Shown here: piece by piece, positions 14,726-18,750 of the stretch
Layout: each line of letters begins with the position of its first letter
Numbering within the stretch: position 1 is the stretch's first letter
DNA from: Thermococcus siculi
Lineage (GTDB): Archaea; Methanobacteriota_B; Thermococci; Thermococcales; Thermococcaceae
Assembly (NCBI RefSeq): GCF_002214505.1
Contig: NZ_CP015103.1
Location: forward strand, 1,922,001-1,986,000
Direction of reading: 5' to 3'
Length of the DNA: 64,000 nucleotides
Made by a program: the position numbers and the translations under genes
The notes under the pieces: model-generated
What the model was told of the DNA's origin: nothing
The model's input: only the letters and a program-made list of their open reading frames with translations
Database searches by the model: none

Positions 14726-15493
14726 TTAATGCAGGTTTTTCAAAAATTCGAGGCTTTTCCGGGCGGATTTTAGGCTATCCACTTCGAGGGTCCATGTCAC
14801 GTCGGGCAGTTTTGGAATGACCCTCTCCCAGGGGACCGTCCCCTCACCGAGGGGAAGGTGCTCGTCCCTTTCGCCCGAGTTGTCGTGGAGATGGACGTGG
14901 ACGATCCTGTCGCCGAAGAGCCTCATGAAGCGGTCGAAGTTCCCGGTGGTCGTGTTGAGGTGCCCGACGTCGAAGGTGACGCCGATCTCCACCTCCCCAA
15001 CTACCTCCATCAGCCTGTCGCAGGTCTGGGCGTCCAGAATCGGGAAGCGGGGCATGTTTTCGACGCCGATTTTAACGCCGTACTCCTCGCCCCAGCGGGC
15101 AATCTTCCTGAGGGAGTCGTGGTGGATTTCAAGGTACTTGTCCCTGTTCTTCACGCTGATTGGGGAACAGTGGCCAGGATGCATCGTAACGACGAGCGCC
15201 TCAAGCTCCGCGGCCACTTCTATCGTTTCGTGGATTATCTCCAGCGAGGCATCTCTTATGCGGGTATTGAAGGAAGCGATGTTCAAATCGCTGAACGGGG
15301 CGTGAACGGTGGCTTTCAGATCGTAGGAGTTCAGGACTTCTCTGAAGAAGGCAGCGTTCTCCCGCGTTAGGTAGTGGGGCCACTCACTCAGGATTTCGAT
15401 GAAGTCAAAGCCAAGCCCTTTAGCCGAGCTAACCCAGTCCTCGAAGGCTTCAAGGCTTTTTCCGCCGTAGGCGGTCATTGAGAGGCCAATCAT
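14726..15493 (-). CDS. Xylose isomerase-like TIM-barrel protein
   Basis: 255-aa sugar phosphate isomerase/epimerase (AP endonuclease family 2) TIM barrel. Metal-ligand candidates lie at strand ends: the Glu of FIEILSEWP, H of TMHPGH, E of GVENMPRFP, D and H of FDVGHLN, the H of HVHLHDN, and E of LEVDS. Family members are isomerases, epimerases or AP endonucleases; the substrate cannot be assigned. The start codon directly follows the stop of the MgtE-type transporter gene with no intervening base, so the two are tightly coupled translationally. That coupling has no obvious biochemical reason and is noted as odd. Confidence 0.85.
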   Translation of the reverse strand: MIGLSMTAYGGKSLEAFEDWVSSAKGLGFDFIEILSEWPHYLTRENAAFFREVLNSYDLKATVHAPFSDLNIASFNTRIRDASLEIIHETIEVAAELEALVVTMHPGHCSPISVKNRDKYLEIHHDSLRKIARWGEEYGVKIGVENMPRFPILDAQTCDRLMEVVGEVEIGVTFDVGHLNTTTGNFDRFMRLFGDRIVHVHLHDNSGERDEHLPLGEGTVPWERVIPKLPDVTWTLEVDSLKSARKSLEFLKNLH

Positions 15494-16687
15494 TCAACCA
15501 CCCACCATCAGCTTGGCCATCAGGACGACGTAGAGGGTTCCAAATATGTCGCTGTTGTTCGAGATGAGCGGAATCGCCACGTGGTCAGGGTCGATGTTGT
15601 GCTTGAACATGAAGTAGGAGAGCGCGTAGGCGTAGAGCATTATGAAGAGGGTCATGAAGGGATATGTGAGGACCACGATGTAGGAGGAACGCGGGATCGG
15701 GTTTCCTGTGATGAGGGCCATCAAGGCACCGCCGATGAGCACCTTGGTCAGCCCTATGACGGGCGTCGTCGTGAAGAGGGCTATTATGTCGGTGAAGGCC
15801 TTCGGGCAGAGGAAGCTCTCGATCTCACCGAGGTGGAGCTTGGTCGAGGTCTTAGCGGCTATTATCGAGCCATAGTTCCCGAAGGAGCTGAGGAGTGCAG
15901 GGTAGATGAAGCTGAGTATCAGTGAGGCCTGGATAATCCCGCTGAATCTCGCGAGCAGCGAGCCGGATATCGTCGAGAGGAGCGCGAGGCCAGTTATCGT
16001 TATGAAGACCTGTCTCAGCTCAAGGAACTCGGCCTTCCTGACCCTGCTTATCGCGGCAACAATTAGGAAAAGGGCTATCATGGCGTAGTTGAAGAGCCTA
16101 AAACCCCCGGGGGACTTCTCTATCAAGAGGATGAAGAGAACCAGCGACGGGACAGTGAGGAAGTCGCCCATCGAAGCGACGAGCGGCGCCGCTACGCTGT
16201 CCGGGTCGGTGCCCCTCCTGAAGGCGAATATTGTCACGAAGGAAGTGAAGTAACCGAGGATGAAGGAGACCAGTATCGTCGAGGTGACGACTATAAGCAG
16301 AACGTCAAAGGCATTCTTCTTTATTCCCGTCGCGACACCGATGGCCCAGAGCAGGAATATCGGGATGAGAGAGATGAGCATCCTCAAAACTATCTCCTTG
16401 AGAACCTTCTTGTCGCGCAGGGAAGGCTCAAGGTCACCAAGGTAGAGCATCGTGGAGAAGCGCGAGGCCATCGAACCGAAGACGTTGCCGCGGAGGCCCA
16501 TTATGCCGGGGAGAACCACGAGCAGACCGGGGAACTGCTTCATTATCACATCGAAGTACTTACCCAGGAACGTGCCACCGAATAGCCCGAATATCTGGGA
16601 CGTGAACAGGGATGGCAGCGTAACCCTGTAGGCTTCCCTGACCTTCTCCCCCAGTTCCGCCCTGATTTCTGCGCCGATCACTGCCAT
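15494..16687 (-). CDS. MgtE/SLC41-type divalent cation transporter
   Basis: 397-aa membrane protein containing two MgtE integral-membrane domains in tandem (about 20-200 and 210-397), each with roughly five helices. The repeated signatures are GLRGNVFGSMASRFS...LGDL in the first and SSFGNYGSIIAAKTST..LHLGEI in the second (about 62-83 and 265-290), and DPDSVAAPL / DPDHVAIPL carry the conserved Asp. It should transport Mg2+ or a similar cation. The cytoplasmic N and CBS domains that gate bacterial MgtE are absent. ATG 16687 was preferred to GTG 16690 because GGAG is then properly spaced. It is divergent from two PhoU/TrkA-C proteins that may replace the missing sensor. Confidence 0.87.
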   Translation of the reverse strand: MAVIGAEIRAELGEKVREAYRVTLPSLFTSQIFGLFGGTFLGKYFDVIMKQFPGLLVVLPGIMGLRGNVFGSMASRFSTMLYLGDLEPSLRDKKVLKEIVLRMLISLIPIFLLWAIGVATGIKKNAFDVLLIVVTSTILVSFILGYFTSFVTIFAFRRGTDPDSVAAPLVASMGDFLTVPSLVLFILLIEKSPGGFRLFNYAMIALFLIVAAISRVRKAEFLELRQVFITITGLALLSTISGSLLARFSGIIQASLILSFIYPALLSSFGNYGSIIAAKTSTKLHLGEIESFLCPKAFTDIIALFTTTPVIGLTKVLIGGALMALITGNPIPRSSYIVVLTYPFMTLFIMLYAYALSYFMFKHNIDPDHVAIPLISNNSDIFGTLYVVLMAKLMVGG

Positions 16688-16796
16688 CACTCTCCATTCC
16701 CCTCACCCCCGAAACCTTACCCCTCAGGGGTATTAAACTTTTCGCGGGCGAAAACTAAATAAGATTTGCCGCTTCTCAAAAATCGGTGAGAGCCGG

Positions 16797-17405
16797 GTGG
16801 AAGAGTGGGACGAAATCGAGGTTCCAAAGAACGTCAAGGACATATTCGTTGAAATGAAGAACACCGCGGAACTGATGGTCGACCTCGCCTACTCCTCGAT
16901 TCTGTTCAACGAGGAGGAGATGGCAGAGGAGGTCCTCGAACTCGAGGAGTACCTCGACCTGCTGAACTACCACCTGATGGTTCACGCGGTTCTCGCGGCC
17001 AGAAACCCCAGGGAGGCGGAGCAGATAACGTCGATACTCCACATGGCGCACGCGATAGACGACATGTCAAACGCTGCTGCTGATCTTGCGAAGATGGTGA
17101 TAGAGGGTGTAGAACTCCACCCAGTAATAACTGAGGCCATCCTGAGGAGCGAAGAGATAATAGGGAAAATCTACGTCTCCCCCGAGTCTCTGCTCGTTGG
17201 AAAGACCCTCGAGGAGCTTGACCTCGCAACCAACACCGGCGTGTGGATACTCGCGGTCAGGCGCGGAAAGCGCTGGATCTTCGACCCAGATGGGGACTTC
17301 AAGATATTCCCCGGGGACATACTCATCGGAAGGGGTACCGAGACCTCGATGAACTACCTCAAGGAGATAGCGAGGGGCAACATCAAGGTGATCGGCAATG
17401 AGTGA
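16797..17405 (+). CDS. PhoU/TrkA-C domain protein (1 of 2)
   Basis: 202-aa soluble protein. Residues about 10-110 are helical and PhoU-like (ELMVDLAYSSILFNEEEMAEEV). Residues about 120-195 form an RCK_C/TrkA-C domain (LLVGKTLEELDLATNTGVW, RRGKRWIFDPDGDFKIFPGDILIGRG), which in K+ channels and transporters senses ions or small ligands. No membrane segment, so it should act in the cytoplasm as a regulator. GTG 16797 follows GGTGAG. It overlaps the next, homologous gene by 8 bp and lies divergent to the MgtE-type gene, so gating of that transporter as a heteromer is a reasonable hypothesis. Confidence 0.85.
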   Translation: MEEWDEIEVPKNVKDIFVEMKNTAELMVDLAYSSILFNEEEMAEEVLELEEYLDLLNYHLMVHAVLAARNPREAEQITSILHMAHAIDDMSNAAADLAKMVIEGVELHPVITEAILRSEEIIGKIYVSPESLLVGKTLEELDLATNTGVWILAVRRGKRWIFDPDGDFKIFPGDILIGRGTETSMNYLKEIARGNIKVIGNE

Positions 17406-17976
17406 GCTGGAGGAGATTCGAAACTGCCTCATAGAGATGAAGGACCTCTCCTCCCTAATGGTCGACCTCGCCTTCTCCTCCGTCATGTACAACAGCGAGG
17501 ACATAGCGGAGGAGGTCTACATCCTCGAGGAGAGGATGGACGAGCTGACGCTCAAGGTCAAGAAGCTCGCCCTTCTGCTCGCCAAGAAGGAAGAAGACCC
17601 CCTGAGGCTCCTCAGCGTCATCGACATGGCGGAGATAAACGAGCAGATAAGCGACGCCGCCTACAAGATTTCCGACCTCGTGCTGAGGGACGTCGAGCCG
17701 CACCCGATAATCAGGAGGATCATGGAGGACACCGAGGAAGAGCTGGGAAGGGTGACCGTTCACCCGGGTTCGATCCTAATAGGGAAGACCCTCGCCCAGC
17801 TCAAGCTCCCGAGCAAGATAGGAACGAGGATTCTGGCCATAAAGCGCGGAACCCGGTACATCTACGACCCCGGAAGGGACGACACCATAGAGGAGGGCGA
17901 CGTGCTCATAGCCGTTGGTTCGGACCTGGACAAGCTGAGGAAGCTGGCCGGTGAGGAGGTCGAAGAGGAGGAGTGA
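17398..17976 (+). CDS. PhoU/TrkA-C domain protein (2 of 2)
   Basis: 192-aa paralogue of the preceding protein with the same two-domain order: a PhoU-like helical half (SSLMVDLAFSSVMYNSEDIAEEV, about 20-42) and a C-terminal RCK_C domain (LIGKTLAQLKLPSKIGTR, RGTRYIYDPGRDDTIEEGDVLIAVGS). The ATG overlaps the upstream stop (ATGAGTGA), so stoichiometric synthesis is likely. The two copies are diverged enough to be distinct subunits rather than a recent duplication. A short Glu-rich tail ends the protein. Together with the divergent MgtE-type gene they form a candidate cation-transport module. Confidence 0.85.
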   Translation: MSELEEIRNCLIEMKDLSSLMVDLAFSSVMYNSEDIAEEVYILEERMDELTLKVKKLALLLAKKEEDPLRLLSVIDMAEINEQISDAAYKISDLVLRDVEPHPIIRRIMEDTEEELGRVTVHPGSILIGKTLAQLKLPSKIGTRILAIKRGTRYIYDPGRDDTIEEGDVLIAVGSDLDKLRKLAGEEVEEEE

Positions 17977-18024: not shown

Positions 18025-18750
18025 ATGCCCGGACAAAAGGAAAAGATTGCGCTGATGCTCATCGCGCTTTTCGTGCTCTCGGGATACACCCTTTCATGGC
18101 TCCACGAGAGGACGCTTCCTTCCCCGGGACCCTACAACGGCATCGGGCTTGAGCCGGAGGTATTCAAAATCAGCGCCCACAACCTCTCCTCCGTCGCTGG
18201 AAACTACAAACCGCTGGCTTACTATCGGAAAAGGGTCGGATCCGAGGTATCCGTTGGAATCGAATACCACGCGGGGGCGCTCAGAAACGTTGGCTGCAAC
18301 CAGTTCCAAATCCGGGGAAGGCTCCACCTCGTTATCATTCCCGCAGATGGCTCCATAGCGATAAGAAGGGTCCTTGTAATTCTGGAGAACGAGACAAACG
18401 TTACCGTGGACAATCTCTTCCCAGTGGAGTCCGGGGTGCTCTACCTCAAGACCCTCGACGGTGTTTTTGAGATGCTGCCCGGTTACCTTCCCAACCACAC
18501 AAAGAGGCAGGTCATGGTGATAAGGGCCGTCAGGCCGAGCTGGGGCGTTTCTCTCGAGGCTGATCCGTACGTTGACCTGGGGCTGGAGAAGCACCGGACG
18601 GAAAAGGAGATCGAAGGGAGAACGAGACTCGTAATTAGGGTGGACTATCTGAGGAGGACCGGCTTCTTCACCTCCGAGAGGGGGACGTTCAAGGTCGAGA
18701 TCCCGATGAACTATCTCATCACCGACCTTGACTCCTGTCCCTACCGCTGA
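18025..18750 (+). CDS. N-terminally anchored extracytoplasmic protein, unknown
   Basis: 241-aa protein. Residues about 5-27 are a hydrophobic signal anchor (KIALMLIALFVLSGYTLSW), and the rest is predicted to be outside the cell, with beta-rich character and several N-x-S/T sequons (for example NLSSV, NETNVTV, NHTK). I recognise no domain. A TATA-like CTTTTTATC at about 17994-18002 lies about 27 bp before ATG 18025, which fits a leaderless transcript. The 3' end overlaps the convergent endonuclease III gene by 10 bp. Confidence 0.65.
   Translation: MPGQKEKIALMLIALFVLSGYTLSWLHERTLPSPGPYNGIGLEPEVFKISAHNLSSVAGNYKPLAYYRKRVGSEVSVGIEYHAGALRNVGCNQFQIRGRLHLVIIPADGSIAIRRVLVILENETNVTVDNLFPVESGVLYLKTLDGVFEMLPGYLPNHTKRQVMVIRAVRPSWGVSLEADPYVDLGLEKHRTEKEIEGRTRLVIRVDYLRRTGFFTSERGTFKVEIPMNYLITDLDSCPYR

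Follow-up and report, generated by a model that had tools for sequence, protein, structure and literature searches.

The window, that is, the whole stretch of 64,000 nucleotides from Thermococcus siculi that was analysed, harbors a transporter gene flanked on its own strand by a TIM-barrel enzyme gene and on the opposite strand by two overlapping genes, R1 and R2, which encode proteins with PhoU and RCK_C domains (R denotes this protein family as a whole):

14726-15493, minus strand: TIM-barrel enzyme gene (PF01261), with 0-nt spacing after the transporter gene; a conserved neighbour
15494-16690, minus strand: transporter P0001 (398 aa), predicted SLC41/MgtE-type divalent-cation transporter with two PF01769 halves in one chain
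Within P0001: motif residues P61..G68N, P163D..P169..D176, P264..GN and P368D..P374..D381
16731-16763, no strand assigned: promoter-like elements TATTAAACTTTTCG / CGAAAACTAAATAAG, compact and back-to-back, common to transporter and regulators
16797-17405, plus strand: R1, PhoU half plus RCK_C (TrkA_C); PH0236 ortholog, on the R1 side of the tree
17398-17976, plus strand: R2, PhoU half plus RCK_C; an apparently ancient paralog of R1, with an 8-nt overlap with it

Inspection of the ORF placed the start codon of P0001 at a GTG at 16690, with an ATG one codon further on. The Pfam scan revealed PF01769 in two stretches (120 bits) and no match to MgtE_N or CBS, confirming the two-half MgtE-type transporter without sensor domains given in the preliminary description. 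Both halves carry PX6GN and P(D/A)X4PX6D (sequence and alignment of 17 proteins), which passages of PMC9276622 give as MgtE/SLC41 motifs. With two PF01769 domains in its chain, P0001 belongs to the double-domain SLC41-type (CBS-less) MgtE proteins and falls outside canonical bacterial MgtE, which carries MgtE_N and CBS in the chain; the NCBIfam model TIGR00400 scored 20.7 bits, below its cut-off of 232.75. VIA-align ranked MgtE first for the AF2 model of P0001 (pLDDT 85, pTM 0.84; 2zy9, Z 17.7, rmsd 3.6, 173 residues), with the next unrelated fold at Z 10.6, and Foldseek returned no transporter match for the model at E <= 0.001, its MgtE match having an E of 0.02. Mg2+ is the putative ion of P0001. 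The lack of sensor domains, treated as an anomaly at first, is normal for archaea and animals according to passages of PMC9276622, in which CBS-less, double-motif MgtE/SLC41 proteins occur in both, might be regulated differently, and are said to need comparative genomics.

R1 and R2 scored above the Pfam cut-offs for both PhoU (37.7 and 39.0 bits, respectively) and TrkA_C (48.0 and 57.2 bits), share 37% identity, and overlap by 8 nt (17398-17405), so that their earlier description as overlapping paralogs combining PhoU and RCK_C, transcribed divergently from the transporter, holds. Two of the three TrkA_C matches in the 2.03-Mb, one-contig genome are R1 and R2. R1 matched the structures of Pyrococcus PH0236 (1vct, 2bkn, 2bko, 2bkp) with an E of 7e-90, and one PhoU plus one TrkA_C per chain, together with similarity to 1vct, places R1 and R2 in a PH0236-like PhoU-TrkA_C family. 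Neither has the Rossmann TrkA_N domain that precedes RCK_C in KtrA/TrkA regulators, PhoU standing there instead. In addition, TIGR02135, the equivalog of full-length PhoU of the Pst system, scored 22.3 and 19.3 bits on them against a cut-off of 130.25, and no phosphate-transport gene adjoining R1 or R2 was recognised by eye in the ORF list of the window.

The elements at 16731-16763 were nearly invariant in 12 aligned divergent intergenic regions, and we take TATTAAACTTTTCG / CGAAAACTAAATAAG, by eye and against the usual consensus, to be BRE/TATA. The window's phylum provided 102 stretches surrounding R; R1 and R2 stood side by side wherever a stretch covered both genes, and 53 pairs overlapped by exactly 8 nt. 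MgtE was present in 64 of these stretches (47 divergent within 1 kb, 16 codirectional, and one divergent with an insertion) and absent from 28, while a further 10 end too near R to tell. The insertion (L150, 7029-8920, genome G092) comprises two genes between R1 and MgtE and looks IS607-type-like, as named by eye. Three stretches (L101, L103, L113) carry a second MgtE-type transporter in tandem, between R1 and the usual one, and five (L104, L109, L130, L133, L144) have no MgtE between the TIM-barrel gene and R1; at least two of the genomes concerned (G043 and G048, from L104 and L109) have an MgtE-type gene elsewhere. Downstream of R2, a 241-aa ORF (18025-18750) without Pfam or NCBIfam match follows R2 in only some Thermococcus relatives.

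On the other side of the locus, the TIM-barrel ATG (15493) directly follows the MgtE stop. The zero spacing noted in the preliminary description is thus correct, but the two are adjacent genes rather than a fusion. Among 44 MgtE-TIM junctions counted, the gap was 0 nt in 18 and a 4-nt overlap was found in another 18. The nearest model for the TIM-barrel protein was CbiR (NF041277), with 81.2 bits against a cut-off of 105. In Thermococcaceae, this gene adjoins MgtE even where MgtE lies away from R (L201, L202, L212), and it also adjoins the cluster in Methanocellales and Methanomicrobiales. In Halobacteriota, at least 32 of the 245 genomes have it no more than 4 kb from R, a lower bound and not a rate, taken from 64 genomes typed and picked by eye among the matches listed.

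A scan of GTDB genomes for R yielded 526 confirmed candidate loci, the best 80 of which were taken; they span Thermococci, Theionarchaea, Methanofastidiosa, Thermoplasmatota, Methanobrevibacter, Methanomicrobiales, Methanocellales, Methanosarcinaceae, Bathyarchaeota, Altiarchaeales, and Borrarchaeum. Plasmid searches added the one relevant record, a Halobaculum plasmid, giving 81 loci. In this set, MgtE lay within 1 kb of R in 55 loci from ten groups (e.g., 21/21 in Methanobrevibacter, 15/18 in Thermoplasmatota, 5/11 in Thermococcaceae, and 0/6 in Bathyarchaeota), so that no other neighbour of R came near it in breadth, the next being the TIM barrel, in three groups. Most linked loci outside Thermococcaceae were codirectional. 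Whole-genome searches detected MgtE domains in 27 of 27 genomes with R, including all 12 in which R was unlinked.

R also co-occurred with the CBS-less transporter. Across 655 genomes from three phyla, 390 had both R and the transporter, 13 had R only, 7 the transporter only, and 245 neither, as raw counts made by comparing the match lists of paired searches by eye, uncorrected for kinship, for which Fisher p-values are descriptive only. The corresponding numbers (both, R only, transporter only, neither) were 99, 4, 4, and 8 in the window's phylum (n = 115, phi 0.63), 86, 5, 1, and 203 in Thermoplasmatota (n = 295, phi 0.95), and 205, 4, 2, and 34 in Halobacteriota (n = 245, phi 0.91), the latter two sets being drawn from larger groups and three weak Thermoplasmatota R matches (G146, G155, G230) being entered as R only. 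In these counts the SLC41-type, scored as two weaker matches or split halves, was kept apart from CBS-type MgtE; the type was called by match number, score, and frame length, with a domain scan of two CBS-type proteins, both of which had MgtE_N and CBS. R thus occurred with a CBS-less transporter in 390 of the 403 genomes that carry it, the opposite of the regulators occurring mainly without MgtE, which the preliminary description had named as the outcome that would speak against it. Both were absent from all five genomes of family f4. R without the transporter was seen in G247, G282, G506, G607, G619, and others, and the transporter without R in G220, G575, G583, and others. CBS-type MgtE was the sole MgtE in 13 genomes, and R was found in two of them (G013, G592). 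The genome G013 (68% complete) contains a canonical CBS-type MgtE (L213, 5509-6870) as well as an R1-R2 pair. Also, one Altiarchaeales genome with a CBS-type MgtE carries, in addition, a minimal version of the locus (L288, 2800-4016), with a single transporter half beside a single PhoU-TrkA_C gene.

The fusion state of the two partners differed among lineages. Most Thermoplasmatota loci comprise four genes (half, half, R1, R2); in Methanosarcinaceae, Methanocellales, and Halobaculum, the transporter halves are two separate genes whereas R1-R2 is fused; Thermococcaceae show the reverse, with the transporter in one gene and R1 and R2 apart; and in Methanomicrobiales both transporter and R1-R2 are fused, leaving two genes. 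No transporter-regulator fusion was noticed among the loci examined. That one partner is fused while the other is split would be compatible with a fixed assembly of two halves and two regulators. Four Methanobrevibacter genomes, searched whole, pair a single R with a two-half fused transporter, indicating that the strict R1-R2 heterodimer does not hold for every lineage. A tree built from 62 R units contains a branch (SH-aLRT 90) that separates the R2 units of all groups from R1 and the single R genes, and the R1/R2 labels required 3 changes compared with a shuffled mean of 24.9. Transporter-half labels required 4 changes compared with 20.0 when shuffled, the gene order being swapped in Halobaculum. 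Judging from these quick trees, in which the deep branches are short, both duplications look older than the split of the sampled archaeal groups.

The structure of L246 (406 aa), in which R1 and R2 are naturally fused, was predicted from 9 sequences (pLDDT 81, pTM 0.77). Residues 13-308 of this predicted fold, which cover the PhoU half of both units, superposed on PhoU 4q25 with Z 24.7 and rmsd 2.0 over 193 of 209 residues, and a single unit matched 1vct with Z 15.5. The two three-helix bundles of the PhoU fold are present in the predicted L246 model by itself; the window would need both chains to form them. Based on this model, R1 and R2 of the window may be two halves of one PhoU-like core with an RCK_C domain on each. 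Structure comparison matched the RCK_C domains of L246 to MthK, KhtT, BusR, and KtrA, and the closest RCK_C structures to R were those of KhtT, MthK, KtrA, and KtrC. The KtrA residues R169 and N175, which we take to be c-di-AMP ligand residues, do not appear to be kept in the alignments of R1 or R2, and c-di-AMP was not adopted as the ligand although the RCK_C fold matches c-di-AMP binders, the likeness to KhtT and BusR with c-di-AMP being one of shared fold only. In BusR, the ligand sits between two RCK_C domains, as described in passages of PMC8517857.

Taken together, there is good support for CBS-less MgtE-type transporters being functionally tied to PhoU-RCK_C proteins in archaea, and such a tie is very probable. 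It is somewhat less certain, but still probable, that R1-R2 are a dedicated trans-acting allosteric regulator in place of MgtE's own sensor, with direct gating as the likeliest mechanism. Sensing would then no longer reside in the transporter itself, which, as a CBS-less SLC41/MgtE-type protein, would provide the membrane path. R1 and R2 would form a heterodimer in which the two PhoU halves combine to make a single PhoU-like helical core, each chain bearing an RCK_C, and this unit would dock to the transporter from the cytoplasmic side. A ligand at the RCK_C domains might shift the PhoU core and so open or close the path, R1-R2 thereby doing in trans the job of the N and CBS domains inside bacterial MgtE. 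We infer the R1-R2 pairing in the window, the transporter binding and gating, what the ligand is, and Mg2+ as the ion; binding and gating are proposed by analogy with KtrA/KtrB. The trans-acting cation gate of the preliminary description is therefore retained in part, in that R tracks the CBS-less transporter, the gate itself being an analogy. Counting against a direct gate, the R pair lies away from MgtE in the 28 of 102 stretches of the window's phylum and in all 6 Bathyarchaeota loci.

This separation of the pair from MgtE in many lineages would suit an indirect coupling, in which a PhoU-like signalling unit affects transporter expression or turnover, or works via a further partner, with no gating. 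PhoU proteins also work through signalling partners, and the compact divergent promoter common to transporter and regulators in Thermococcus is a frequent layout of a regulator and its target. However, no DNA-binding domain was found on R1 or R2 in the Pfam scan, divergence is one layout of several, and the mirrored fusion and fission of the halves suggests a matched protein stoichiometry; indirect coupling is hence considered unlikely.

That the linkage and co-occurrence are simply inherited from an ancestral gene cluster with no functional tie draws on the lack of kinship correction in the counts, but it appears highly improbable, since the genes stay in one genome despite many changes of order, strand, and fusion state, and are jointly absent from f4 and from the 203 Thermoplasmatota genomes. 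Regulation of a K+ channel or transporter by R1/R2 has slightly more in its favor: RCK_C domains serve mainly K+ systems, the closest RCK_C structures are from KhtT, MthK, KtrA, and KtrC, and the PDB title of 1vct reads 'putative potassium channel related protein'. Yet no K+ gene was recognised by eye among the 30 broadest neighbour families listed (present in at least 3 of the 81 loci) or among those listed for another 12 stretches, and R tracks the CBS-less MgtE-type transporter instead. As K+ genes were not seen to recur in these neighbourhoods, a K+-channel regulator was rejected as quite improbable. Two other candidates were set aside: an MFS-like gene (L155, L158), which is two genes off, on the opposite strand, and confined to that genus as far as seen, and free-standing CBS proteins in Thermoplasmatota, encoded 0.4-3.7 kb from R in mixed layouts.

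Direct gating by R1-R2 could be extended to an ancient, archaea-wide cation-transport complex, in which SLC41-type halves are matched to R1-R2 (PhoU with an RCK_C sensor on each bundle), both duplications predate the split of the sampled groups, and the TIM-barrel neighbour makes or breaks the ligand read by the RCK_C pair, as an alternative to CBS-gated MgtE. This extended version is tentative and, as a whole, rather doubtful. CBS-less double-domain transporters in archaea were already known; what is new is the regulator pair following them across archaea, and no description of PhoU-TrkA_C proteins with MgtE/SLC41 was found in the searched open-licence PMC literature. The analysis thus offers a candidate regulator for archaeal CBS-less SLC41-type transporters and makes the question of their control directly testable, with a solved structure already in the PDB for one half of the R pair (PH0236, the R1 ortholog). 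Moreover, Thermococcus, Haloferax, and Methanosarcina are growable hosts, partly open to genetic manipulation. The findings also suggest that PhoU and RCK_C domains are used together, of which no account was found in the same literature, and the sensor and switch of an archaeal magnesium-type transporter seem to have shifted into detachable parts.

Compared with known systems, P0001 shares the transmembrane fold and motifs of bacterial MgtE (Thermus thermophilus, 2zy9), in which sensing is likewise done by a cytoplasmic module; there, however, the N + CBS sensor is built into the chain, which forms a homodimer, whereas P0001 joins two halves in a single chain that lacks N and CBS domains. P0001 fits the description of the archaeal/animal SLC41-type with two motif-bearing halves and no CBS in PMC9276622; no regulator is named in the passages concerned, whereas a partner pair is proposed here. 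The deposits of PH0236 are labelled 'unknown function' or 'putative potassium channel related', and their titles name neither an R2 partner nor a transporter. The full two-bundle fold of PhoU (4q25, 1t72, 1sum) is also predicted for fused R1-R2, but in the window it would be split across two chains, with RCK_C on each. Finally, the KtrAB and TrkAH K+ systems combine a membrane protein with a separate cytoplasmic RCK_C-bearing regulator, as in the set proposed for R1/R2, which differs from them in having a PhoU half instead of the Rossmann RCK_N/TrkA_N domain and a transporter of a different family.
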